DNA of 30,072 bases from a virus. The position numbers and the translations under genes were made by a program. Of the stretch, positions 5,289 to 20,152 are shown one piece after another (the stretch's first letter is position 1; every line of letters begins with the position of its first letter). Under the pieces are notes generated by a model. The model made no database searches. It was not told the DNA's origin and was given only the letters and a program-made list of their open reading frames with translations. The stretch spans positions 1-30,072 of the IMG/VR virus record IMGVR_UViG_3300035670_000960. One strand, written 5' to 3'.

Positions 5289-5443
5289 AAAAGCCAGTGT
5301 GGGACAAGAGCCGGCCGAAGGGCCTGGGCAAGTCAAAGCCGCTAGCTCCAGCCAAGAAGGCTGCCGCCAAGCGCATGGCGGCCAAGGCAGGGCGTCCCTA
5401 TCCTAACCTCGTGGACAACATGAGGGCCGCGAGGAAGCGCTAA
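5285..5443 (+). CDS. small basic conserved phage protein, 52 residues
   Basis: A 52-residue, Lys/Arg/Ala-rich protein beginning MKKPVWDKSRPKGLGKSK and ending in GRPYPNLVDNMRAARKR. GGAGG (5272-5276) is 8 bases before the ATG. The start overlaps the endolysin stop (ATGA), and its stop overlaps the next start (TAATG). The strong positive charge would allow nucleic-acid or membrane binding, but I see no fold signature. I recall comparable short basic proteins beside lysis genes in environmental phages, with function unknown. Confidence 0.75.
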   Translation: MKKPVWDKSRPKGLGKSKPLAPAKKAAAKRMAAKAGRPYPNLVDNMRAARKR

Positions 5444-7296
5444 TGGCCCTCCTCAGACTCTTCCTCAAGCCCGGTGTTGACAAGCAAAATACCGAGTACG
5501 GCGCCGAAGGCGGCTGGATAGACACCGACTACGTTCGGTTTAGGTACGGCTTGCCTGAGAAGATTGGCGGGTGGGCCTCGTTCGGTGAGTCTCCAGTCAA
5601 TCTGGTGGGCCAGCCGAGTGAAGTATTTGCTTGGAACTCCCTGAACAGCTCTCCGTATCTTGCGGTAGGGACCAACAAGAAGGTTTACGTCTACTACGGC
5701 GGAACCTGGGCGGACATCACGCCCATCCGCAAGACGTCCACAGGCGTGACCTTTGACACGACGTCCGGATCCAACCAAGTGCGGGTCAATGACTCGGGCC
5801 ACGGAGCGATCCTCGGGGACTTTGTTACGTTGTCCTCGGCCTCGGGCAACCCCGGAGGCATCACCAATGCGGAGTTGAACAACGAGTTTGAGGTGATTGA
5901 CGTCCCGAATGCCAACGAGTTTGTCATTCAGGTAGCGAGCAACGCTTCATCCTCTGTCACGGCGGCGGGCTCGGCAAACGCGGCGTATCAGATCAACACC
6001 GGCAGCGCTGTGAGCTATGCAGATTTCGGCTGGGGAACCGGTACGTGGGGCCTTAGCACGTGGGGCACGCCCCGTCCGCCTTCTGCCTCCGTGGCATTGC
6101 TGTCTCGAGTGTGGCAGTTTGACGCGTATGGTGAGAATCTCATCATACAGCAGGTGGACGGAGGCGTTTACGAGTGGCTGCCGAGTACCGGCATTGGCGT
6201 ACGTGCTTCTGCTGTCTCCGGAGCGCCGACCAAGAGCAAGTACGCGTTGGTGTCAACGCCTGATCGGCATTTGATCTGCTTTGGAACGGAGTCGACGATC
6301 GGTACGACGACTTCGCAGGATCCGATGTACGTTCGGTTCTCCAACCAAGAGGACATCAATACCTTTGTCGCTACTGCGACCAACACCGCGGGCGGTCAGC
6401 GGCTGACGGACGGTAACTTCATTGTCTCAGCCTTGCGCTCGCGCGGACAGATTTTGATCTGGACGGACACTTCACTGCACGGCATGCAGTACCTTGGTCC
6501 GCCCTACACCTTCGGCTTCCAGCAGCTCGGGGCCAACTGCGGATTGATTGGCCCGCATGCCTCGGCGGACGTAAACGGTGTGGCGTATTGGATGAGCAAG
6601 GACGCCTTCTTTGTGTTCGACGGTGTGGTGAAGAAACTCCCATGCACTGTGCAGGACTACGTGTTCGAGGACATCAACCTCACGCAGTCGCAGAAGACGC
6701 ATGTGGGAATCAACACGCAGTTCAACGAAGTCACGTGGTGGTATTGCCACAGCGGCAGTAACTACATCGATCGCTTTGTGACCTACAACTACCTCGAGCA
6801 GGTGTGGTCCGTGGGCACGATGCCTCGTACGTCATGGGCGGACATTGGTACTTATGCCTATCCGATTGCGACGGACTACGACCCGGCCAGTACTGCGGCG
6901 ACGATTAGCACCATTTACGGGCTGACTGCGGGCCGATCGCGGGTGTTCAACCAGGAGTTTGGCAAGAACGCCAATGGCTCGGCGATCGCGGCATACGTCA
7001 AGTCGGGCTATTTCGACATTGGCGATGGGGATCAGGTGCTTTTCATGAAGCGGTTCATCCCGGACTTCAAGAACCAGGAAGGCAACCTGACGGTGCGGCT
7101 GCTGTTGAGGTTGTACCCACAGGTCACTGCAACACCGAGTTCGCTTGACCCTTACGTGATCACGCCTACCACCGACAAGGTAGACACGCGAGCGCGCGGG
7201 AGACAGATTGCGTTGCAGATTGAAAGCTCTGACCTCGACACCAACTGGCGTTTCGGCACCATGCGTGTCGACATTCAGCCTGATGGCTTGCGATGA
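5443..7296 (+). CDS. virion structural protein, tail/neck type
   Basis: A 617-residue protein starting MALLRLFLKPGVDKQNT with the segment EGGWIDTDYVRFR, then GLPEKIGGW. I recognise this opening from structural proteins of environmental podovirus-like phages, sometimes compared with P22 gp10-type tail stabilisation proteins; that comparison is uncertain. The rest is aromatic- and Gly/Ser-rich and beta-like (for example DFGWGTGTWGLSTWGTP around residues 195-210), with no enzymatic motif. The start overlaps the previous stop by one base and is preceded by GAGGA. The stop overlaps the next ATG by four bases, so the gene is in one operon with the structural genes on its right. Confidence 0.75.
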   Translation: MALLRLFLKPGVDKQNTEYGAEGGWIDTDYVRFRYGLPEKIGGWASFGESPVNLVGQPSEVFAWNSLNSSPYLAVGTNKKVYVYYGGTWADITPIRKTSTGVTFDTTSGSNQVRVNDSGHGAILGDFVTLSSASGNPGGITNAELNNEFEVIDVPNANEFVIQVASNASSSVTAAGSANAAYQINTGSAVSYADFGWGTGTWGLSTWGTPRPPSASVALLSRVWQFDAYGENLIIQQVDGGVYEWLPSTGIGVRASAVSGAPTKSKYALVSTPDRHLICFGTESTIGTTTSQDPMYVRFSNQEDINTFVATATNTAGGQRLTDGNFIVSALRSRGQILIWTDTSLHGMQYLGPPYTFGFQQLGANCGLIGPHASADVNGVAYWMSKDAFFVFDGVVKKLPCTVQDYVFEDINLTQSQKTHVGINTQFNEVTWWYCHSGSNYIDRFVTYNYLEQVWSVGTMPRTSWADIGTYAYPIATDYDPASTAATISTIYGLTAGRSRVFNQEFGKNANGSAIAAYVKSGYFDIGDGDQVLFMKRFIPDFKNQEGNLTVRLLLRLYPQVTATPSSLDPYVITPTTDKVDTRARGRQIALQIESSDLDTNWRFGTMRVDIQPDGLR

Positions 7297-8669
7297 GTAA
7301 GATCACCAACGTCCGTTTGCCTAACGCGGCGACCGCCGGGTACAGCGCGGGGCAGTTCGACCAGCTTGTCCGATCGCTCGAGCAGGTTATTTTTCAGCTC
7401 AACAACACCTACACGCCCGTTGTTTCGGAAAATACGGCTGGCGCGTTGAGTTGGTTCGAGAGCCGTGGAGAATCAGAAGTGAACTCTAGTTTCAGTGCAA
7501 CCTCCTTTGACTCTTTCGGCCGTTTGCGCGTCGGCAACCCGTACACGTTGTTCGACAGCCAGAACCGGTATCAGAAGGACCCGCAGTTTAGCGAGTCGTT
7601 GTCCGGCTCTGGCACGGCATCGTACGTGGCCAACGAGAGCAGCGTGGACATGAACGTCACGACGGCCTCTGGCGACAAGGTAGTGCGCCAGTCGTTCCGC
7701 GTCTTCCCCTACCAGCCTGGCAAGAGCTTGCTGGTGCTTGCTACGTTTGTGATGAACGCGGGCAAGACCAACCTGCGTCAGCGCGTGGGGTATTTCAACA
7801 CGGACAATGGTGTGTTTTTCCAGGCCAACGGCACAACCAAGTCGTTCGTCCTGCGTACGAATACGTCAGGCACGCCTAGCGATACGCGGACCGTGAACCA
7901 AGCGGATTGGAACGGCGACAAGCTTGACGGGACGGGGCCTTCTGGGATTACGTTGGATGCTGCGAAAGCGCAGATCCTGTGGATGGACTTCGAGTGGCTG
8001 GGCGTAGGCTCGGTGCGTTGCGGCTTTGTGATCAACGGAGTATTTATTCTTTGCCATACGTTCAACAACGCGAACGACATTGACAAGGTTTACATGACGA
8101 CGGCCATCCTGCCGGTGCGTTATGAAATTGAGAACACGGGAGCTACGGCCTCGAGTTCAACGCTGACGCAGATCTGTTCTAGCGTGGTGTCGGAAGGTGG
8201 ATATGAACAAACGGCTGCGCTCACCTGGGCGCGGCAGACAAGCGCCACCGCGGGCATTGGCACCTCCTTCGTGCCCTTGGTTTCGATACAGCTCAAGGCC
8301 GCGAACCTTGGTGCGGTGGTACTGCCTAACACCATCTCCTTCATGCCTACTTCGGCGTCGGACTATTTCGAGGTCGCGTTGATCAAGAATCCGACGCTGA
8401 CGGGCGCTTCATTCACCAGTCTTTCGACCAACGTCAACTACGACATTACGGCCACTGCCTTAACGGGTGGGACAATCGTTAAGTCTGACTTTACGTCCTC
8501 CGGTGTACTCTCCTCTACCGCGATTGCTGATCCAAGTTCATACAACTTTGACCTACAACTTGGCGTTTCCATTAGCGGGACGAGCGATATCTACACCGTG
8601 GCTGCTCGCACCATCTCTGGGACAGGAGACGGTATTGGAGCGCTTTCCTTCTGGGATCTGACGGACTAA
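7293..8669 (+). CDS. virion structural protein, beta-rich
   Basis: A 458-residue protein. The N-terminal 60 residues carry a probable helical virion-binding segment (GQFDQLVRSLEQVIFQLNN). A compact beta-rich domain follows, containing SFDSFGRLRVGNPYTLFDSQ and later LWMDFEWLGVGSVR then CGFVINGVFILCHTF. I recognise the latter combination from tail-associated proteins of marine phages and related elements; a lectin-like or jelly-roll fold is plausible but unproven. It starts in a four-base overlap with the upstream gene without a strong ribosome site, so coupling is likely. Receptor or glycan binding is only inference. Confidence 0.7.
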   Translation: MSKITNVRLPNAATAGYSAGQFDQLVRSLEQVIFQLNNTYTPVVSENTAGALSWFESRGESEVNSSFSATSFDSFGRLRVGNPYTLFDSQNRYQKDPQFSESLSGSGTASYVANESSVDMNVTTASGDKVVRQSFRVFPYQPGKSLLVLATFVMNAGKTNLRQRVGYFNTDNGVFFQANGTTKSFVLRTNTSGTPSDTRTVNQADWNGDKLDGTGPSGITLDAAKAQILWMDFEWLGVGSVRCGFVINGVFILCHTFNNANDIDKVYMTTAILPVRYEIENTGATASSSTLTQICSSVVSEGGYEQTAALTWARQTSATAGIGTSFVPLVSIQLKAANLGAVVLPNTISFMPTSASDYFEVALIKNPTLTGASFTSLSTNVNYDITATALTGGTIVKSDFTSSGVLSSTAIADPSSYNFDLQLGVSISGTSDIYTVAARTISGTGDGIGALSFWDLTD

Positions 8670-9041: not shown

Positions 9042-9115
9042 CCCCCTCCGTACCGCGTCCTTTCCCGGCGCGCGACCCCTTGTTGGGTCATTGGCACAAA
9101 CTGGAAAGGACCCCT

Positions 9116-11377
9116 ATGGAAAATGAAGGCATCATGGGCCTGCCCGCAGGGCAAGCCATGCAAGATCCAAGGCCCACGGACCAGCCGACCTACGTTTCGA
9201 GCGCGGATAGCTATGACGCCGCTCTGACGGCACTGGGCATGTCCTCGGGCGACCCTGCACAGGCAGAGGCCGTCCGTCAGGCGGTCCGCGAAAGCATTGA
9301 CGAGCTTGACCTCAGCCCGACTGAGGTTTCGGCGGTACTTGAGGTCCTCGAGTACATGTCGCAGCGGCCGGATGAGTACCCGGCACTTCGCCAGCGCCTG
9401 ATTGAATCGGGGATGATGGACGAAGATGACCTGCCCGAGGCGTACGATCCGACGTTCCTCGGCATTGCCATCATGGCACTGAACGAATACCAGATGGCCG
9501 GCGCGCAGGGCGCGCAGGCGCCGATGCAGATGGCCCCGACTGTCGAAGGCCTTGAGCCGTTGGCCATGGCCAAAGGTGGGCTAGCCGATGTAGCGCAGTA
9601 CCTGGCCTCTCAGGGCCGCAACGGTGACTCGATCTTGGCGCACATCACGCCGTCGGAAGCCCGTTTGCTGAAGTCGATGGGCGGATCCGGGACGATCAAC
9701 CCGCAGACGGGGTTGCCTGAGTTCTTCTTGAAGAAGCTCTTCAAGAAGGTCAAGAGCGCCGTTAAGAAGGTACTGAAGAACCCGATCGTACGGATGGTGG
9801 CCACCGTTGCGTTGGCCACGGTCCTCGGACCTGCGGCCGCGGCGGTAACAGGTGGCCTTGGGATGTCTACTGCTGCCGCTACGGCACTGGCCTCCACGGC
9901 TGCCTCTGCGGGCGTCTCCGCGATGGCTGGCGAGAAGCTCAACGCCAAGAGCCTTTTGATCAACGCGGCGACAAGTTACTTCGGCGCGGGTGGCACGGTC
10001 GGCGGCGTCAATCCTGTTTCAAGCATCGCGAAGTATGCAGGCAAGCTTCCTGGCGTGACCGAAGGGGGCAAGGTCGCACAAGGTATTGGCGCGGGCTTGA
10101 CGAGTGCTGCGGTCGGCAAGGCCGCGGGCATGAGCACGCAAGAGGCGCTTGGAATGGGGCTTCAGACGGGCATCCAAGCCGGCATTGCTTACAAGCCGCA
10201 GGCACAGCCTGGAACAGCGGGCACCCCAGCCAATCAGGCTGCTGGGGATAAACCAAACTGGGCAAAGTCGGATAGTGAGCTTCTTTCACAGGGCTACAAG
10301 CCTGATGATATTGCTTTAATTCGCGCAAACAGCCCTTCTGCTCAAACCTCAGTACCCGCAGCAGGATCGCCTGCTTCTATGACGGATGCTCAGTTGTTCG
10401 GCATGGGCTACCAGCCTGACGAATTTGCTGCCGTTCGTGCAGCGGCGGCACCTTCCGCGGCTCCTGCGGGCAGTGCCTTTAGCCGTCCCCTTGACTACCT
10501 CAAGTCTCTTGCTCCGGGCGGAGAAGCGCCGTCGTTTGATAAGTTCAAAAATGCATTTTTGGTCAATCCTACTGCCAAAGAAGGCACACTTGCCCGATAC
10601 GTGCCGGGCGTCGCAACGGCGCTCACCGTCTCTGGCCTGGCTGGCGGCTTCCAAGCAGGAAAGGCTGACGAAAACCCGCTTTTCAACCGGGACTACACGG
10701 GCCGCGACTACATGCGGGACAACCCGGAGCAGTTCAAAGGTGGCTTGGCGCCTTACAATCCCACGCAGAACCCCTACAACCCGATTGTCCCAACCCCGGC
10801 CTATGGGTCAGAGCAGCCGTCGGGTCCGGCGGGCGTGTTGCCGCAGAGCCCGATGCCGATCTACATGGCCCCGGCTTCTTCCCCGACCAACATGCCGGGC
10901 GGCGTTCCGCAGCCCTATAACGTCTCGGGGATGTACGGCGTCCCGCTGTTGTATGGCAATCCGGCTCGCCCGGCGGGGTATGCGCAGGGCGGCCAGGTCA
11001 ACAGCCGGCTTCGGCAGGCTATCGCAGACCCGCGTCAGGTAGCGCAGACGGAAGGGCTGCTTTACAGCGGTCCCCAGGCCGCGCAAGCCGCAGGGCAGGC
11101 GATCCAGGCTCTGAACAACCGGCCTCCGCAACGTGGAATGGCCCCGCAAGGGCTGAAACACGGCGGCCAGCCAGAGCATTTCCCGCGTAAGACGGGTCCG
11201 ATCAACGGTCCTGGCACCGGAACGTCGGATTCCATCCCGGCGATGCTGTCGGACGGGGAGTTTGTCTTTACTGCACGGGCTGTTCGCAACGCGGGCGGCG
11301 GAAGTCGACGAAAAGGTGCGCGCCGGATGTACAAATTGATGAAAATGCTGGAAGGCGGCAAGGTCGAGGGCAAGTAA
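9116..11377 (+). CDS. large virion protein, candidate internal/ejection protein
   Basis: A 753-residue protein. The ATG at 9116 is chosen because AAAGGA (9105-9110) lies 5 bases upstream; a TTG 36 bases earlier has none. The order is an acidic helical N-terminus (about 30-130), then GDSILAHITPSEARLLKSMGG, a very basic stretch FFLKKLFKKVKSAVKKVLK from residue 203 running into a hydrophobic Ala-rich segment to about 245. Two copies of a GYxPDxxAxxRA motif follow (about 385-405 and 423-443), then a Pro/Tyr-rich zone. The end is TSDSIPAMLSDGEFVFTARAV then a basic tail, which I recognise from many phage virion proteins. The basic-hydrophobic pair suggests membrane interaction during DNA entry (inference). 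The next gene begins directly after its stop. Confidence 0.75.
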   Translation: MENEGIMGLPAGQAMQDPRPTDQPTYVSSADSYDAALTALGMSSGDPAQAEAVRQAVRESIDELDLSPTEVSAVLEVLEYMSQRPDEYPALRQRLIESGMMDEDDLPEAYDPTFLGIAIMALNEYQMAGAQGAQAPMQMAPTVEGLEPLAMAKGGLADVAQYLASQGRNGDSILAHITPSEARLLKSMGGSGTINPQTGLPEFFLKKLFKKVKSAVKKVLKNPIVRMVATVALATVLGPAAAAVTGGLGMSTAAATALASTAASAGVSAMAGEKLNAKSLLINAATSYFGAGGTVGGVNPVSSIAKYAGKLPGVTEGGKVAQGIGAGLTSAAVGKAAGMSTQEALGMGLQTGIQAGIAYKPQAQPGTAGTPANQAAGDKPNWAKSDSELLSQGYKPDDIALIRANSPSAQTSVPAAGSPASMTDAQLFGMGYQPDEFAAVRAAAAPSAAPAGSAFSRPLDYLKSLAPGGEAPSFDKFKNAFLVNPTAKEGTLARYVPGVATALTVSGLAGGFQAGKADENPLFNRDYTGRDYMRDNPEQFKGGLAPYNPTQNPYNPIVPTPAYGSEQPSGPAGVLPQSPMPIYMAPASSPTNMPGGVPQPYNVSGMYGVPLLYGNPARPAGYAQGGQVNSRLRQAIADPRQVAQTEGLLYSGPQAAQAAGQAIQALNNRPPQRGMAPQGLKHGGQPEHFPRKTGPINGPGTGTSDSIPAMLSDGEFVFTARAVRNAGGGSRRKGARRMYKLMKMLEGGKVEGK

Positions 11378-14374
11378 ATGGCAACAGATACGTCAATCCA
11401 GCAGCAAATTGTCCGCGAAGCCCCGGAAATCGAGGCCAAAAAGCTCAAACTGCTTGAAGAGGCGCAAAAACTTGCTTTTCAACCCGGGTTTGCTGAACAA
11501 ATCCCCGGTTATCAGGTTGCGGGCTTCTCTCCGGCCCAACAGGCGGCGATGCGTGCTGCAGAGCAGCAGGGAATTGGTGCATTTCAGCCTTATGTAACGG
11601 CGGCAAACCAAGGAATGGCCGGCGGCATGGGCATGACCCGTGAGGCGGCGGACGTTCTTCGTGGCGCAGACACTCGTGGGCAGTTTACCGATGCACAGGC
11701 CGCAATGCGGCAGGCGGGCGCTGCGGCGGCGGGTATCAGCGGCGGCATCAACCAGATCAACACCGGCCTTGGCTACATGGACCTGGCCGGCCAGCGTGCG
11801 CTTCAGGCGGATACGACCGGCCGTTTTGGTGGGGCCTACCAGGACATCGGCACGGGCATCAACGCTCTTGCAACTTCTCAGAACATGGCCGCCCGCGCTT
11901 CGCAGGCGGATCTCACGCCGGCAACTGCCGCGATCGGTCAGGGCATGCGCGGCATCTCCGATGCCCAGAGCATGGCCGCCCGCGCTGCGGGCGCGGACTT
12001 CTCTGGTTCGCAGGGGCTTCTTCAGAACGCTGCCCAACGCGCCGCGGGAGCCGCGGGCGTGCCGCAGATGGCGGGCGCGCAGCAAGCCGTTTCGCAGGGC
12101 CTCGGCACTGGCCAGCAAGCCATTACCATGGCGCAGCTCGCTGCACAACAGCCGGGGTTTGGCGCTGCGCAGCAGGCGCTTGGCGCGGCGATGGGCGCTG
12201 CCGGACAGGCCGGGCCGTCCAACTTTGGCGCCGAGGTCGCACGTCTCCAGGGCGCAGGGTATACCGCGGCAGATGCCTCACGGCTCGCGGCCCAAGCAAC
12301 ACAGCAGCCGGGGTTTGGTCAAGCAATCGGCCAGGGCCAACAGGCCATTGCGATGGCGCAGCAGGCGGCCGCGCAGCCTGCCATTCAACAAGGAATTAGT
12401 GCACTTTTTCAAGGCGCACAGCAGGCTCAGACAGCAACGGGGCAGCCGGGGTTTGAACGTGGAATCGCTGGGCTGTATGGGGCAGCCGCGCAAGGCGCTG
12501 CGGCAACGGGGCAGCCGGGGTTCCAGCAGGGCGTAGGCACCGCACTCGGTGCCGCCGAACAGGCGCGACAGGCCGCGCAACAGCCGGGTTTTGCCGCGGC
12601 GCAGGGTACGTTGGCGCAGGGCATCGGCACGATCGGCGGTGCGACGCAGGGGTTCCAGCCGGGTGCCGCAACACAGGCGTTCATGGATCCGTATCGCCAA
12701 CAGGTGATCGACGAAGCCATGAAGCAGATCAACCGGCAGGGCACGATTGCCCAGCAGGGGCTGTCCGCTCAGGCGGTACGTGCGGGCGCGTTCGGTGGGG
12801 AGCGCGAAGGCGTACAGCGTGCCGAAATGCAGCGCGGGCTGCTTGAGCAGAAGTCAAACACGATTGCCAACCTGCTCAGTCAAGGCTACTCACAGGCGCA
12901 GGCCAATGCGATGGCGAGCTTTGAGCAGCAACAGCAGCGTCAAATGGCGGCGGGGCAGAACATTGGTCAACTCGGCACCCAACAGGCGGCGGTCGCCGCC
13001 CAGCAAGCCGGGCTGAGTCAGCAGGCGGCCCAGCAGTTAGCACAAGCCGGTCAGCTTCAGACGTCTGTCGCGGGGCAGCAAGCGGGGCTTGGTTTGCAGG
13101 CAGCAGGGATGCAACAGGCCGCTGCACAGGGCGACATTGCCGCCGCAGCGCAGCGCGCGGGGCTCGGGCAACAGGCCGCGCAGATGATGCAAGCGGCAGG
13201 CACCGGGGCTATCAGTGCTGGGACACAGCAAGCGCAGCTCGGGCAGGAAGCCGCACGGCTCGCGGCCCAGCAAGCAGGACTCCAGGGACAACTTACTGGA
13301 CAGCAAGCGCAGCTTCAATTGCAAGCTGCCCAGCAGCGTTTTCAGCAGGCAGGGTTTGACGCAAACACTGCAATGCAAATGGCGCAGCTCGAACAAACCC
13401 GACAGCAGCAAGCTGCGCAACAGGCCGGGCTGTATCAAGGGATTGGGGGTCTTCAAGGCCAGCTTGCTGGACAACAAGCGCAACTTGGGCAAACGGCCGC
13501 ACAACTTGCCGCACAGCAGGCAGGCCTTGGTGTACAAGCCGGCCAGGCCATGGGTTCGCTCGAGGCGCAGCGCGCAGCGGCCGAACAGGCGGCAGCAGGG
13601 CAGATCGCCAACATCGGCCAGACGGTCGGGCAGCAGGCCGCCCAGCAGGCGCAGCTCGGTCAATCGGCCGCGGGGCTGTATGGCAACCTCTCGCAGCAGC
13701 AGATTGCCGCGGGCCAGGGCCTTGGTCAGCTCGGCGTAGAGCAGGCTCGTTTGGGCCAGTCCGCTGCGGGCTTGTACCAGCAGGCCGCGCAGGGCTACGG
13801 TAACCTTGCCTCCCAGCAGGGCGCGCTCGCCGGGCAAGAGTCGAACATTCAACAAAACGTCTCCAACCTGCTCATGCAGCAAGGCGCGGGGCGCACGAAT
13901 GCTGCCCAGGCACTTGCCGGCATCTACGGGCAGCAGTCGGGGCAGTTCCAGAACATTGCGCAGGGGATTGGCTCGCTCGCGGGGCAGCAGTTTGGCATCG
14001 GCCAGCAGACGGCGCAGGGCCTTGGTCAGTTTGGCCAACAGTACGGCCAGCAGGGCCTGCAGCAGCTCGGCATCGGCCAGGCCGCGCAGGGCATGCAGCA
14101 GTCCGACATCAACTTCCTCTACAACGTCGGTCAGGCGCAGCAGGCATTCAACCAGCAGGCCCTCGATGCGCAGCGTGCGACGCAGATGCAGCGCCTGTAT
14201 GCTCCGTACCAGCAGGCAGCGTTCCTCTCCGACATCTACCGTGGCGCTCCGTCCACGCAGATGGCGACGACAGCGGTCAGCCAGCCTTCGGCAAGCCCGT
14301 TCCAGCAGGCGGCGGGTATCGGATTGGCGGGATTGACAGCGGCCGCGGGCGCAAAAACAGCCGGATTGTTCTAA
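11378..14374 (+). CDS. Gln/Ala/Gly-rich repetitive virion protein, candidate internal/ejection or tape-measure-like protein
   Basis: A 998-residue, extremely Gln-, Ala- and Gly-rich protein. Residues 1-60 have IPGYQVAGFSPAQ. Residues 310-424 are five 23-residue units starting QPGF (one QPAI). A conserved-looking block (AFMDPYRQQVIDEAM, then AVRAGAFGGEREG, about 430-480) follows. Residues about 544-720 repeat (Q)A(G/Q)L units with helical spacing. The C-terminus (NVGQAQQAFNQQALDAQRA, later FLSDIYRGAPSTQM) is again non-repetitive. The non-repetitive blocks resemble proteins I recall from environmental phages. Little charge and high Ala/Gln favour long helices or a rod. It begins immediately after the previous stop (TAAATG). 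A tape-measure or ejection-channel role is inferred from size, composition and neighbours. Confidence 0.75.
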   Translation: MATDTSIQQQIVREAPEIEAKKLKLLEEAQKLAFQPGFAEQIPGYQVAGFSPAQQAAMRAAEQQGIGAFQPYVTAANQGMAGGMGMTREAADVLRGADTRGQFTDAQAAMRQAGAAAAGISGGINQINTGLGYMDLAGQRALQADTTGRFGGAYQDIGTGINALATSQNMAARASQADLTPATAAIGQGMRGISDAQSMAARAAGADFSGSQGLLQNAAQRAAGAAGVPQMAGAQQAVSQGLGTGQQAITMAQLAAQQPGFGAAQQALGAAMGAAGQAGPSNFGAEVARLQGAGYTAADASRLAAQATQQPGFGQAIGQGQQAIAMAQQAAAQPAIQQGISALFQGAQQAQTATGQPGFERGIAGLYGAAAQGAAATGQPGFQQGVGTALGAAEQARQAAQQPGFAAAQGTLAQGIGTIGGATQGFQPGAATQAFMDPYRQQVIDEAMKQINRQGTIAQQGLSAQAVRAGAFGGEREGVQRAEMQRGLLEQKSNTIANLLSQGYSQAQANAMASFEQQQQRQMAAGQNIGQLGTQQAAVAAQQAGLSQQAAQQLAQAGQLQTSVAGQQAGLGLQAAGMQQAAAQGDIAAAAQRAGLGQQAAQMMQAAGTGAISAGTQQAQLGQEAARLAAQQAGLQGQLTGQQAQLQLQAAQQRFQQAGFDANTAMQMAQLEQTRQQQAAQQAGLYQGIGGLQGQLAGQQAQLGQTAAQLAAQQAGLGVQAGQAMGSLEAQRAAAEQAAAGQIANIGQTVGQQAAQQAQLGQSAAGLYGNLSQQQIAAGQGLGQLGVEQARLGQSAAGLYQQAAQGYGNLASQQGALAGQESNIQQNVSNLLMQQGAGRTNAAQALAGIYGQQSGQFQNIAQGIGSLAGQQFGIGQQTAQGLGQFGQQYGQQGLQQLGIGQAAQGMQQSDINFLYNVGQAQQAFNQQALDAQRATQMQRLYAPYQQAAFLSDIYRGAPSTQMATTAVSQPSASPFQQAAGIGLAGLTAAAGAKTAGLF
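12305..12649 (+). repeat. 69-bp coding repeat array (23-residue QPGF units)
   Basis: Five in-frame units of exactly 69 bases begin at 12305, 12374, 12443, 12512 and 12581. Four start with cagccgggg/t coding QPGF; the second is a diverged QPAI unit. A further, irregularly spaced QPGF copy lies near 12150. Confidence 0.85.
13007..13528 (+). repeat. helical repeat zone with 7/11-residue spacing
   Basis: Triplets AGL, AQL or AGF, mostly preceded by QQ, occur at residues 544, 569, 594, 619, 633, 644, 658, 683, 701 and 715. The spacings are 25, 25, 25, 14, 11, 14, 25, 18 and 14 residues, each a sum of 7s and 11s. This is the signature of heptad/hendecad helical repeats. Confidence 0.8.
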
Positions 14375-14384
14375 GGGACCAACC

Positions 14385-16502
14385 ATGAGAGACAAGATGA
14401 AAGACGACTACGAAAACGTCGGAATCATGCAAGGGTTCCTTGACGATATGGGAGAAGAAGAGGACGCCCTCGAAGAGGAAGAGGGGTCTGATGAGGCCGT
14501 GGCAGCCAAGATGCTCGATCGGCGCGTCGACTCCCCTGAGATCCTCATGAACAACCTCCGCGGCGACATGCGCTCCGTCGATGCGCGTCGCGAAGAGCTT
14601 GCCGATTTGGTAGGCTACGAGGCCGCGTCCGAGACCCCCGAAACCGTCCTTGCGATGCTCCAGCCGGTGCTCGCGCAGGGCGGCGGGATTGGCGCGCTCC
14701 CCCAATCAGGGCCCATGGCCCAAGGGCCACAACCTCCGATGCCCCCGCCCCCGGGGGGAGCCATGGGAGCTCCTCCTCCTGGCGCTCCGCCCCTTCCTCC
14801 TGGTGGAGCCGCACCGCCTCCTGGCGGTGATATGGCCGCACTCCTTGCTGCTGGACCTCCTCCCGGGGGCGGTATGGCACCTCCGGGTCCCATGGTGGGA
14901 CCTGACGGACAGCCGATTCCGCCGGAAGGCATGCCGCCGATTCAAATGAAGGACGGCGGGCTTGTCCAGCGTTTTCAAGACGGGTCCGATGAGGAGGGCG
15001 TGACCCCGGCTGACGAAAGGAGTACTGCCGCGGGCATGCTCTACTCTCCTGAGATGGTCAATGCGGCGCAGATGGCGGCGATGGGTTCGCTGTTCCAGAG
15101 TCCGCAAGAAGTTCCGACACTCGAGTCGGCTATGAAGGCGCGGTTGCCGGAATACGAGCGGCTGCTTGGGCCGGATCGCAAGGCGACGCAAGCGAACATG
15201 CTGTTCGACGTTGCAGGTGCTGCCCTTAACTTTGCCGCGAACCGCGGCCCACGGGGCGAGGCGCTGCGAGGCTCGCCGTTGTCACGTTTGGCGGGGGCGT
15301 TCAGCGAACTTCCGGCCGCTATTCAGAAGCGCGTCAATGACATCGAGACGACTCAGCGTCAGCTCAAACTCTTGGCATTGCAGGCGGGCGAGAAGGACCG
15401 TGACGAGATCCAGCAGATCAACACCAAGCTTGCTTCAGAGAAGCGTTCGGTGCTCAACACCATCCTCTCTGCCGATGCCAAGTTCCGTGCTTCGGAACGT
15501 CGTGGCGCAGGCAGCCCGTTTGGCAAGGCCGACTGGGAAATGAACGTCTTCAACACGCCGGGGCTTGCCGAGCGGTATGCCGCGGGGCAGACGACGCCGC
15601 AGGAGAACCAGCTTCTCGCATCGGCGATCACAAGCTACACCGAGCCACGGTATCAGCCTGTTCTCAATCCTGATTCGGGGTTGCCCACTGGAAAATTCAG
15701 TACATTACCCGGTAAAAGACTTCCGCAGTTTATTAAGGAAGCACAGGCGCTGCGTAAAAACGGTAATGTCCCAGCGGGGACGTCCATCACGCTCAATCGC
15801 GAATCTACCGTTGAACGTCCTACTCGTGATGAAATGTCCCCGGGTGAGATGGTTGAAGCCCCCGCGCCATTGCTCTCGCCGGGCGGTGAACAGCCGACGG
15901 TGGCGGGTACCGCAGAACCTTCAGATCGCCCTTCGGGGGAACCCGCATTGTTGCCGCGTGAAGTGGCAATGGCCGCCCCTGTGTCGCTATGGCGTGATCG
16001 TGCAAAGATCGCAGGCCCCTTCGCGGCTGTTTACGCAGGAGTCTCAAAAACTCCTGGCCTTGGGGATCCAATGCGAGAAATCACCCTCGCTCGTTCTCAA
16101 GCAGAAATTATTGCCAAAGAGCTCAACGAGGCATTCATTAAGAGTGCTGCTAACAGCGTGACAGAGCAGAAAATGATCAATGAGATATTGAACATTAAGC
16201 CTGCCGTGCTTACAGACCCTGAAACATACGGTACGCAGTTGATCGCTCTTGCAACAACCATGGACCAGTTGATCGACGAAAATCGTAAGAAATCGGATAT
16301 CAGCGAAGGATCGCTTGGCGCTTCGTTATCTCCTTCCCAGCGCACAGAGGCCAGGGCGAAAGTTTCGTTCCTAGAAAGAATGCGCGGCAGTTTAGGCCTT
16401 CCGCCTGCCGTGTATAGTGAGGAAGAGATTGCTAGACTTCCGCCTGACGTCACAGAAGTTCTGTGGATGGGCAGAGTTCCGGCGAAAATTAGGGACCGAT
16501 AA
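14385..16502 (+). CDS. large virion protein with acidic and Pro/Gly-rich N-terminal region
   Basis: A 705-residue protein; AAGGGA (14373-14378) lies 6 bases before the ATG. Residues 23-35 are almost all Asp/Glu. Residues 45-90 (VDSPEILMNNLRGDMRSVD then ELADLVGYEAA) form a segment I recognise from conserved environmental phage virion proteins. Residues about 105-185 are a disordered Pro/Gly/Met linker, followed by MKDGGLVQRFQDGS. A long helical part (RVNDIETTQRQLKLLALQ to about residue 370) and a moderately charged C-terminus follow. There is no enzymatic motif or clear membrane span. Its location between the other giant genes points to a component of the same internal or tail assembly (inference). 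Confidence 0.7.
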   Translation: MRDKMKDDYENVGIMQGFLDDMGEEEDALEEEEGSDEAVAAKMLDRRVDSPEILMNNLRGDMRSVDARREELADLVGYEAASETPETVLAMLQPVLAQGGGIGALPQSGPMAQGPQPPMPPPPGGAMGAPPPGAPPLPPGGAAPPPGGDMAALLAAGPPPGGGMAPPGPMVGPDGQPIPPEGMPPIQMKDGGLVQRFQDGSDEEGVTPADERSTAAGMLYSPEMVNAAQMAAMGSLFQSPQEVPTLESAMKARLPEYERLLGPDRKATQANMLFDVAGAALNFAANRGPRGEALRGSPLSRLAGAFSELPAAIQKRVNDIETTQRQLKLLALQAGEKDRDEIQQINTKLASEKRSVLNTILSADAKFRASERRGAGSPFGKADWEMNVFNTPGLAERYAAGQTTPQENQLLASAITSYTEPRYQPVLNPDSGLPTGKFSTLPGKRLPQFIKEAQALRKNGNVPAGTSITLNRESTVERPTRDEMSPGEMVEAPAPLLSPGGEQPTVAGTAEPSDRPSGEPALLPREVAMAAPVSLWRDRAKIAGPFAAVYAGVSKTPGLGDPMREITLARSQAEIIAKELNEAFIKSAANSVTEQKMINEILNIKPAVLTDPETYGTQLIALATTMDQLIDENRKKSDISEGSLGASLSPSQRTEARAKVSFLERMRGSLGLPPAVYSEEEIARLPPDVTEVLWMGRVPAKIRDR

Positions 16503-16504
16503 GC

Positions 16505-19500
16505 ATGGCAACGCCTTCTGATCGTTTTCGGTTTGAAAACCTCACACCGGAACAGGTGTCGACTGTTCGCACATACATGTCGGATGTAGGGCTCGACCCG
16601 CAGTTCGCGATGAATCCGAACACGTTTAACACGCTGCCTGTTGACAAAAGGCAAGCCTTGTTCGCTCAGTTGCCGCGCATGACGCCGACAGCCGCCGCTC
16701 CTGATGTCCCCGTAACACGCATTGGAAATCGAAAGTTTGAAGAGGAACCCTCTGCGGTTGATAAAGCCAGTGTTGCTGCAATGGCGCCTGTTACGGCATT
16801 GGCTGCGCAAGCTGCCCCATCTCAAAATCTTCCGCCCAGCCTAGTCCCTATCGTTACTCCTGGAACGGAATCTTTGATGGGCGTGATCTTTGATCCGCTT
16901 CGTGAAGAAACCCCTCCGCTTCCGCCTTCCTTGACGCCTATTGGCCCCACGGTAGGAGAGAAGGCGGGACAGGTTGGCCTTGGCCTCGCAGAAGGCGCCG
17001 TGCGCTACGGCACTCCTGCCGCTGCTGCCGCTGCTGCCTTTACAACGACCGCTCCGTACGCGGCGATGATTCCTGTCCCGCATGCCTATGCAATTCCAAT
17101 CCTTGCGGCCGCTGGGGCGTATGGCGGAACGTATCTGCTGAGTGACACGCTTGCCGATTTCTTTCCTTCTCCGCCGCGAGAGGATCTTGTCCCCTACCGT
17201 GAAGGAGGCATTACCGCAGGAGGCATCCTCGGATCCGCGCCGTCTTCACTCCTTGTGCGTGCGCCTTCCGCCGTCTTTGTCGGAAACAACGTCGGCTCTC
17301 GCATTCACAAGTTGATCACCTACACTCCGGAGTTCGCCCGCCGCAGCCCGAAAACCTACCTGGGCATTGAAGCGCTCACCGCGGGCTCTGCCGGTCTGGC
17401 TGGCGGCGCTGCCGAAGCGTTCTACCCTGGTGAAGCCGGGATGCGCTTTGCCTCTGAGTTTGGCGCGAGTGTGTTTACTCCAGGCAAGTTGTTGTTGAAC
17501 GGCATCAATGTCGGGTACAACACGACCAAAAACATCATCTCGCGTCAGTTTAACGAAGGCGTTGTCGATCAGGGCCGGGCCAATCGTCTGTATGGCATCC
17601 TAGATGGGGTCCTCAAAGAATCCGCCCCGATCCGTGAACTCGAGCAGCTCGGCACCCCCGAGGCCTTGCAGAAGGCCTCCTTCCTGCGTGAGCGTTACTA
17701 CAAGAACCTCATCAAGCAGCTTGAGAAAGACTTCCCGCCGGATGCGAAACCGACCGCGGCTCAAGCGACAGGCGACCCGGGCCTTTCGATCCTTGAATTG
17801 AGCCTCGCCCGTGGCGATCCGATGTTCAAGTCGAAGGTGGAGAACCAGGCGCTGCTGGCCATGCGGGCACAGCAGTCGTTGATTCAGTCACTGCAAAATG
17901 TCGGCAGTCCAGCCGCACTACGTGCTGCCGCAGAAATGCAAGCTGGATTGTACGACAGCATGATCCTGGGGCGTATCGGCATTGCCGAACGCACTGCAAA
18001 GGACGCGGTATCGCGCATTTCAAGAGACGACCCCAGCAGCCGTATGCTGATCGGGGATGTCATCAAGAACAATGTCAACCAAGCGCTTGACGATGCCCGG
18101 GCCTATGAAAAGAAGCTTTGGGGCGAGGCGTTTCAGCAAAGCATGCGCGTGCGCAAGGGAGAGGTTGTCCCAAAGACGCTTGTTCCCAAAGGCACGTTGA
18201 CCACGTTCCTTGATATGGCGTCCAACATGACGCCTGAGCGTTATTCGGCACTTCCCGCCGAGTTGCGTTCAATCATGGGGCGTTTGGGGGTCAACGACGT
18301 GGCGATCGCCTCGTACAAGCGAGGCATGCGTACTCCGGAATACCTTGAAACTGGAAAAGTTCCCGAGGAGTTTTTGATTGGCGGCCTTCGAGAAGGACGC
18401 GGCGGCAAGGTGATTTACGAGCCGCTTGGAAAAAAGACCCCGGTGGACGAGCTTATCCGCATCCGTGGCGACCTGTTGGGCTGGGCGCGTGATGCGTCCT
18501 CGAGCACGGGCCAGCGCTCCCCGCAGGACGCCCGTATGTTTGGCATGCTTGCGGAGTCGGTTCTTGATGACTTTGCGCAGCTCAACACCAAAGCCTACGA
18601 CCGTGCACGTCAGTTCTCGCGTTCGCTGAACGATAACTTCACCCGCAGCTATGCGCGCGACATCACAGCGGTCACAAAGGCCGGTGCAGAGCGCATTCCA
18701 CCGGAAATCCTCGTCAGTCGGATGTTTGGACGCGACAGTGATTTGACCTATGCTCGTATGGAGCAGATCGAAGACGCTGTAGGTTTGTTCGGACGGCAGT
18801 ACGACGCACTGACAGAGCAGCTTGCCCAACTTCGCGCGGCCAAAGCGCCACCGACACAGATCGCGATCGTCCGACAGCAGCTCAAGGACATGGAGCCGCT
18901 GGCTAATATCTCCAAGGATCGGGTGATTTCCGTCACGGATGCTATGGAGCGTGTGCTGCGCTTGGCGATGACGGATCCGACCATTGTTAACCCGCGCACG
19001 GGGCGCGTTAACGAGCAGGCGCTCGCCAATTGGATGACGCGTAACCAGGCCAATCTGGAGAAATTTGGGTCGCTGAAGAACGATCTGAAAAACGCGCTCG
19101 ATGCAGAGACGGCGCTTGCTGCGCTTAACGACCCGAATTCCGCCGCCGCTCGGCAACTGCGTAACCAAGAAGCCTTTGCTGCCGTACTGGCAGGCGGGGA
19201 GAAGCCCAGTGCTGCGGTTTCTGACATCTTGACGAGCCGAACTCCAGTTTCTGGGGTGCGACAGCTCATCGAGGTGGTAAATAAAGCAGGGGACAACCGC
19301 CAGTCGGCCATGGATGGGCTGAAATCATCCATTTTGGAGTGGGCGTACACCAAGGCCGGCGGTACGGGTAACCAATTCAGCGTCAAAGCCTTCGACGACA
19401 ACCTCTTCAAGCCTCTCGCCCCGGGGCAGCCGTCGATCATCAACGTACTGCGCACGCAGGGCTTGATGACGTCCGATGAAGTCAAAAACATCCGCCGTTT

Positions 19501-20152
19501 GCTCACCCCAATGCGGCGTATCGAAGAGGCAAAGGGCAATCGGGCGTTCCTCGAGAACGTCATGGGCGGAGGCAATCCGCTTGACGCTTTTGCCGTGCGC
19601 TTTATTGCCTTGCACCTCGGCTCAGGCGCGATTCCAAGTGGCCCAGGCTCGCTTGCCGCGGCCAGTGCCGTGTCGAACACCGCCCAGCAGATCTTCAATC
19701 AAATGCCACGGCTCAATGCCCTGGCGGCACTCAAGGAAGCCGCGGCGGATCCGAAGGTCATGGCCGCCCTGCTGCGCAAGGGCCGTACGGACGAAGAGAA
19801 AATGGCCTTTTTGCGCGACGTGCAGTCGCAGCTCAGTGCCTCTGGCATCCTCATGCAGTCAGCCCAGCGCGGCACGATTCCGGCGCTCAACGTCACGGAA
19901 GAGCAAAAGGCCGACACTGCCCGCCGCCGCGAAGAAGCCCGTCGCACTCGCATGACCCCGCCCGCTCCAGCGACTCGTGGGATGCCGGGAATGCCTGCTG
20001 GCCAGGGCGGACCGCCGCCGGGAGGCCCTCCTCCGACCAGTGGTGGCCCGCCGTCCTCGCAGAGCCGGATGATGCTCCAGCAGCTCTTCCCGAACGACGC
20101 GATTACGGGGGCGGCTGCGATGCAGGCGGGGATGCCGCCGATGCCTGGCTAA
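16505..20152 (+). CDS. very large virion protein, candidate internal/ejection protein
   Basis: A 1215-residue protein, the largest here. AGGGA lies 9 bases before the ATG. A charged N-terminus (FRFENLTPEQVSTVRTYM) leads to an Ala-rich hydrophobic region at about 165-215 (TPAAAAAAAFTTTAPYAAM and IPILAAAGAYGGTYLL) that could enter a membrane. From about 330 to 1130 it is mostly helical and charged, which fits a long internal protein. The C-terminus has a Pro/Gly linker and then SQSRMMLQQLFPNDAITGAA, an ending I recall from very large phage virion proteins. I see no lytic transglycosylase motif. As the last gene of the late run, it overlaps the convergent nuclease gene by 50 bases. Ejection function is inferred from size and composition, not homology. 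Confidence 0.75.
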   Translation: MATPSDRFRFENLTPEQVSTVRTYMSDVGLDPQFAMNPNTFNTLPVDKRQALFAQLPRMTPTAAAPDVPVTRIGNRKFEEEPSAVDKASVAAMAPVTALAAQAAPSQNLPPSLVPIVTPGTESLMGVIFDPLREETPPLPPSLTPIGPTVGEKAGQVGLGLAEGAVRYGTPAAAAAAAFTTTAPYAAMIPVPHAYAIPILAAAGAYGGTYLLSDTLADFFPSPPREDLVPYREGGITAGGILGSAPSSLLVRAPSAVFVGNNVGSRIHKLITYTPEFARRSPKTYLGIEALTAGSAGLAGGAAEAFYPGEAGMRFASEFGASVFTPGKLLLNGINVGYNTTKNIISRQFNEGVVDQGRANRLYGILDGVLKESAPIRELEQLGTPEALQKASFLRERYYKNLIKQLEKDFPPDAKPTAAQATGDPGLSILELSLARGDPMFKSKVENQALLAMRAQQSLIQSLQNVGSPAALRAAAEMQAGLYDSMILGRIGIAERTAKDAVSRISRDDPSSRMLIGDVIKNNVNQALDDARAYEKKLWGEAFQQSMRVRKGEVVPKTLVPKGTLTTFLDMASNMTPERYSALPAELRSIMGRLGVNDVAIASYKRGMRTPEYLETGKVPEEFLIGGLREGRGGKVIYEPLGKKTPVDELIRIRGDLLGWARDASSSTGQRSPQDARMFGMLAESVLDDFAQLNTKAYDRARQFSRSLNDNFTRSYARDITAVTKAGAERIPPEILVSRMFGRDSDLTYARMEQIEDAVGLFGRQYDALTEQLAQLRAAKAPPTQIAIVRQQLKDMEPLANISKDRVISVTDAMERVLRLAMTDPTIVNPRTGRVNEQALANWMTRNQANLEKFGSLKNDLKNALDAETALAALNDPNSAAARQLRNQEAFAAVLAGGEKPSAAVSDILTSRTPVSGVRQLIEVVNKAGDNRQSAMDGLKSSILEWAYTKAGGTGNQFSVKAFDDNLFKPLAPGQPSIINVLRTQGLMTSDEVKNIRRLLTPMRRIEEAKGNRAFLENVMGGGNPLDAFAVRFIALHLGSGAIPSGPGSLAAASAVSNTAQQIFNQMPRLNALAALKEAAADPKVMAALLRKGRTDEEKMAFLRDVQSQLSASGILMQSAQRGTIPALNVTEEQKADTARRREEARRTRMTPPAPATRGMPGMPAGQGGPPPGGPPPTSGGPPSSQSRMMLQQLFPNDAITGAAAMQAGMPPMPG

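Follow-up and report, generated by a model that had tools for sequence, protein, structure and literature searches.

Why should a long, low-complexity phage protein space its repeats by sums of only two numbers, 7 and 11, and what might such a protein do? The question is raised by IMGVR_UViG_3300035670_000960, a single virus record of 30,072 bases that was analysed along its whole length (hereafter the window), and in which structural genes on the plus strand are followed by replication genes. One of these open reading frames, at 11378..14374 (+), encodes a Gln/Ala/Gly-rich protein of 998 aa, a probable DNA ejection protein judging by its IMG/VR relatives, the short forms of which match PHROG 4287. 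A 452-codon reading frame lies antisense to this gene (13037-14395, -) and is probably a by-product of the codon composition of the Gln/Ala-rich gene.

An earlier note, made from the letters of the sequence, had reported that the AGL/AQL/AGF triplets at residues 544-715 are separated by sums of 7 and 11. We find that they are, and that the numbering was right (position 13007 is codon 544). Two AQL triplets that had been overlooked (residues 669 and 708) still fit, giving spacings of 25, 25, 25, 14, 11, 14, 11, 14, 18, 7 and 7, and the run reaches residue 797 through further spacings of 43, 7 and 32; all 14 spacings between residues 544 and 797 are sums of 7 and 11. In a composition-preserving shuffle 47% of spacings below 60 fall in the same set, and 14 out of 14 is therefore unlikely, but repeats are non-independent events. 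The periodogram of hydrophobic residues at positions 516-905 has its peak at 3.570 residues per turn, with a power of 22.8 vs a 99% shuffle limit of 10.2. In windows taken one after another from about residue 526 to 925, the phase of the hydrophobic stripe stays between 198 and 240 degrees; elsewhere it has no stable phase. This peak and this constant phase support the previous suggestion that the low-complexity region is not random. The numbers 7 and 11 are no special code; they follow from any stripe with close to 3.57 residues per turn.

The striped segment sits between two conserved blocks. Upstream of them, an N-terminal arm of variable length (residues 70-425; 11585..12652, +) carries QQPGF-type repeats; in its residues 250-425 (12100-12650) QQPGF/GQPGF repeats recur about every 23 residues. 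The periodogram peaks of the arm, 3.785 and 3.295, are unlike those of the striped segment. The arm is followed by a conserved core (residues 429-515; 12662..12922, +), recognised by invariant alignment columns of the form MDPY..V ... GAFGGxREGVQ. Its GAFGG motif (residues 470-474; 12785..12799, +), conserved in relatives, serves as our first anchor, and the distance from MNPY to GAF is 34 in 90 of the 90 members counted. Periodogram, phase and face analysis together delimit the striped helical segment (residues 516-905; 12923..14092, +), with its period of 25/7 and its three faces; the stretch originally noticed (residues 544-717; 13007..13528, +) lies within it and is made of 25-residue (7+7+11) units, as seen from the triplet spacings. 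Only 17 of the 390 residues of the segment are charged, and on its sequence the region behaves as a continuous striped helix, which agrees with the earlier picture of striped, almost uncharged helices. Alignments define a conserved C-terminal domain (residues 906-960; 14093..14257, +), which contains the second anchor, SDIY, at 951-954. The protein closes with a Gly/Ala-rich tail kept in close relatives (residues 973-998, SPFQQAAGIGLAGLTAAAGAKTAGLF; 14294..14371, +). A hydropathy scan of the 998-aa protein found no strong hydrophobic window; T7 gp14 and P22 gp7 fail the same crude test.

The family is large and its members differ greatly in length. A first scan recovered 24 loci, the best segment of each being 44-98% identical; their proteins are 522-1103 aa long, while that of phage DSL-LC04 has 294 aa. 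A profile scan gave 80 relatives among the matches listed, of at least 476, and homologues overall range from 261 to 1103 aa. When 17 non-redundant relatives were pooled, leaving out the L001 segment, the commonest hydrophobic lags were 32, 25, 7, 18, 39, 14, 11, 35 and 21, all of them sums of 7 and 11. Two relatives, L079 and L077, have in their C-terminal half a striped segment rich in Gly, Thr and Asn with little Gln, and L079 shows the strongest 3.57 peak (power 29). In a distant clade (L020, L021 and L024) the spacings are present and the full-segment periodogram has no significant peak.

We measured the anchor distance from GAFGG to SDIY and took as phase this distance divided by 25/7. 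In a first set of 58 members with both motifs, the 32 distance values, of 104-532 residues, cluster in phase with R 0.71, and an expected mean phase of about 0.1 turn was recorded from this set before further loci were fetched. The second set, 41 new distinct segments, has a phase of 0.08 turn with R 0.90 (range in this set 0.85-0.90), and the 12 lengths unseen in the first set give R 0.79 (p 1.5e-4). Taken together, all 44 anchor distances (104-532 residues) give R 0.73 at 25/7, with p at the 5e-5 floor, and the short forms alone (215 residues or fewer) give R 0.84. When periods from 2.2 to 12 were scanned, 3.57 came out best, with a corrected p of 0.002, the floor of that test. A control distance, measured in the N-terminal arm of these proteins, shows no lock (R 0.18, p 0.33), and the 44 lengths show none at periods of 3.5, 11/3, 7, 11 or 25 (R 0.08-0.19), nor at 14 or 50/7. 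Since there is no lock to 7, 11, 14 or 25, neither duplication of whole units nor a symmetric hairpin accounts for the lengths.

Homologues with insertions that break the 7/11 rule had been named in the earlier note as the cases to look for. Most length differences follow the rule: 220 of the 239 differences of up to 30 residues between related pairs are 7/11 sums vs 9 in 30 (30%) by chance, the pairs not being independent. Clear exceptions do exist, such as L009 (6001-8157), in which a 26-residue deletion relative to L010, with flanks 99% identical, breaks the phase rule; the lengths of L020 and L089 are further exceptions. Over the family the helical segment has lengthened up to five-fold, and nearly all of the steps leave a given side of the helix facing as before. 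The pattern is real, and it appears to be selected for.

The helical segment carries three faces, of Leu, of Gly/Ala and of amide/hydroxyl residues. Face analysis covered 14 proteins, 11 longer relatives and three short forms. In the 11 proteins with segments of more than 130 residues, the Gly/Ala face is offset from the hydrophobic stripe by +86 to +158 degrees and the Asn/Gln/Thr/Ser face by -78 to -140 degrees. The same faces are found in L079 and L077, though Gln has largely given way there to Thr, Asn and Ser, and the three shortest forms show the same trend with inconsistent significance. With about 130 degrees between them, the two stripes would suit side-by-side packing in a ring of some 6 to 8 helices, assuming one helix per subunit. 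The simplest such ring would turn the amide face outward and leave the lumen side mixed, so that Gln would not be in the lumen; the DNA channel suggested by the earlier note is plausible, and one lined with Gln is possible.

What the protein may do is suggested by its shorter relatives and by its neighbours. The window protein itself found nothing in Pfam, PHROG or PDB, and had no match to the PHROG 4287 profile at E 1. PHROG 4287, whose name 'DNA ejection protein' is an annotation, is matched by 39 of 52 aligned relatives, the short forms nearly over their full length, and the DSL-LC04 homologue matches it at 6.9e-9 over residues 10-288. The window protein in turn aligns with the DSL-LC04 homologue (tblastn E 1e-9, 57% over 68 residues) with all core motifs in register. 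By this chain of sequence comparisons through the short relatives, the window protein is homologous to the PHROG 4287 members, although it has about three times the length of the short ones. 

DSL-LC04 is the closest named genome found, and its gene order is that of the window. The genes upstream encode a virion structural protein of PHROG 3287 (5443..7296, +), the DSL-LC04 counterpart of which is annotated 'stabilization protein', and one of PHROG 1645 (7293..8669, +) that is 48% identical over 78% to a virion structural protein of Puniceispirillum phage HMO-2011. Immediately upstream lies a gene for 765 aa (9080..11377, +); its product ends in GTGTSDSIPAMLSDGEFVFTARAVRNAGGG, a motif common to several tape-measure PHROGs, yet the gene cluster is podovirus-like. 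Downstream, the next gene (705 aa; 14385..16502, +) is, by its position and its synteny in L026, a possible second ejection or internal virion protein; its product has a strongly acidic start and then about 100 Pro/Gly-rich residues. The third gene (1215 aa; 16505..20152, +) has a DSL-LC04 counterpart annotated 'DNA transfer protein' and an L026 counterpart 37% identical. A Pfam search of the window's own cassette found no hydrolase domain. An SLT transglycosylase is encoded two genes after the homologue in Chlorobiaceae phage CV-1-33, and in L029 and L030 the gene that follows the homologue has an SLT or Hydrolase_2 domain; such hydrolase neighbours fit the ejection-cassette pattern described for podoviruses (PMC8954989). 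The window protein is most likely, from this sequence evidence, a podovirus ejection (pilot) protein whose helices would pack alongside one another in an oligomeric rod or tube.

We propose that this protein would be the first in a run of podovirus DNA-ejection (pilot/internal virion) proteins, and that in each copy one continuous alpha-helix would span the distance from the conserved core (GAFGG) to the conserved C-terminal domain (SDIY). Such a helix would expose a Leu/Ile stripe, a Gly/Ala stripe turned by about 130 degrees from it and, some 110 degrees in the opposite direction, an amide/hydroxyl face. Both stripes would pack on neighbouring copies, giving a straight multi-helix rod or tube that would form most likely after ejection, in the cell envelope. 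Because this packing would run from end to end, changes in helix length would be allowed only in steps that keep the phase, namely 7, 11 and their sums. We consider this full proposal, a podovirus ejection protein with one continuous phase-locked helix per copy packed as a multi-helix rod or tube, moderately probable. It is tempting to speculate further that the result is a tube of adjustable length, with one phase-locked helix per subunit, Leu stripes set in the Gly/Ala grooves of the neighbour, an amide surface, and a length tuned to the host envelope in quanta of 7 and 11 residues; this elaboration is tentative, and we regard it as rather unlikely.

Several observations count against the full proposal. 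AlphaFold models the complete window protein as helical with low confidence (mean pLDDT 41.5), and this model was left out of the fold search. The segment is about 17% Gly, and the exceptions L009, L020 and L089 break the phase rule. An alpha-helix rises 1.5 A per residue. A straight helix of 482 residues would accordingly measure about 72 nm, too long for a head or a periplasm; within the virion, therefore, the long forms are probably bent, overlapping or folded. Finally, the model of a short relative, also helical (pLDDT 61.7), is predicted to break at residues 186-193. A Foldseek search with this short-form model against the PDB gave nothing significant; against viral models it returned relatives or unnamed proteins, with some neighbours named ICA or tail-fibre proteins.

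The predicted break leads to the most serious rival, a helical hairpin like that of ejected T7 gp14, the tip of which would be lengthened by the repeats. The short-form model consists of two long helices, 137-185 and 194-251, and the point at which repeats are inserted (residue 185 of DSL-LC04) is close to the break between them. Ejected T7 gp14 itself takes the form of a pair of antiparallel helices within a hexameric channel (PMC11784390). A hairpin, however, would be expected to grow in paired steps, as in the signalling coiled coil of bacterial chemoreceptors, where length classes also change in phase-preserving steps but do so by paired heptads in a hairpin, whereas the family of the window protein changes by single steps of 7 and 11 (PMC6628036). 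The missing lock at 14 and 50/7 and a stripe phase that is unbroken along the segment tell against it as well. We favour one continuous helix over the hairpin, which we judge unlikely but worth keeping in view.

Alternatively, the striped helix could be the shaft of a trimeric coiled-coil fibre or needle, external or at the tail tip, with the Leu stripe as its core. The fold-search neighbours named ICA or tail-fibre proteins would agree with such a shaft. Peptidase_S74 is a chaperone typical of trimeric fibres. In L029 (7707-8942) and L030 (7872-8774) the homologues have this self-cleaving domain (the endosialidase chaperone), with an SDxRLK motif, at their end instead of the Gly/Ala-rich tail. 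Against a fibre, Pfam finds no S74 domain in the window protein, its helix has a second, buried-looking Gly/Ala stripe, the PHROG is named for DNA ejection, and wall hydrolases are among the neighbours; the known needle P22 gp26, by comparison, is 21% charged and lacks such a period. We rate a fibre a little below the hairpin.

A third explanation is that the segment expanded neutrally, slippage adding whole units and the phase being a structureless by-product. The 25-residue units do exist, and the length of the region varies strongly. However, Tandem Repeats Finder detects no repeat at the DNA level, and identical residues of adjacent units differ in their codons at about the rate expected by chance; because the codons differ between units, the units are old, and they have been kept at the protein level. 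In addition, the lengths are not locked to 25, the lock is present in the short forms of up to 215 residues, and the faces persist under a different composition. Neutral expansion is largely refuted, and we consider it very improbable. The least credible idea, raised by the earlier note, is that of a length ruler or tape measure for tail or head: it would suit a long, quantised helix and an upstream gene with a motif common to tape-measure PHROGs, but two indirect proxies for virion size speak against it, since the neighbouring virion genes stay almost constant in length while the homologue runs from 294 to 1103 aa, and contig size shows no link to protein length (Spearman -0.25, p 0.48, 10 contigs). 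In addition, two Pelagibacter phages with short homologues, HTVC023P (gp81) and HTVC027P, are members of a group described as Podoviridae.

Compared with known systems, the proposed ejection protein shares features with several and is the same as none. As with P22 gp7 and T7 gp14, the homologue in the relatives precedes further ejection genes and is rich in Ala, Gln and Gly, and gp7 also has a Gly/Ala-rich C-terminal tail. P22 gp7, in contrast, belongs to another family, PHROG 598, and hhalign against a 7-member gp7 alignment was not significant (probability 0.3%, E 0.18). Spacings in gp7 look similar by eye, but the 3.57 stripe was not significant in its testable homologues (p 0.06-0.79), and neither the ejection proteins of P22 and T7 nor the P22 needle has a period of the 3.57 type. 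Size differs too, gp14-like proteins having 181-240 aa (PMC8954989) vs 998 aa in the window protein and 261-1103 aa in its homologues. The nearest working analogue is the DNA-pilot tube of phiX174 H, likewise a long helix of hendecads and heptads, rich in Gln and with few hydrophobic residues (PMC7354561). It comes from an unrelated virus, PDB searches with two profiles gave no sequence match to it, and the lining of the lumen by Gln, proven in phiX174 H, is only putative for the window protein, as any contact with DNA would be.

The refolding that ejection proteins undergo during infection makes them difficult to study. In this case a strong constraint on the folded form comes from the genome record by itself and points to a helix that holds its phase across hundreds of residues even as its length varies five-fold. 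How a podovirus builds its channel, and whether the length of this channel follows the host envelope, could thereby be put to a direct test. Moreover, the phase-lock test may be applied to other phage proteins of variable length.
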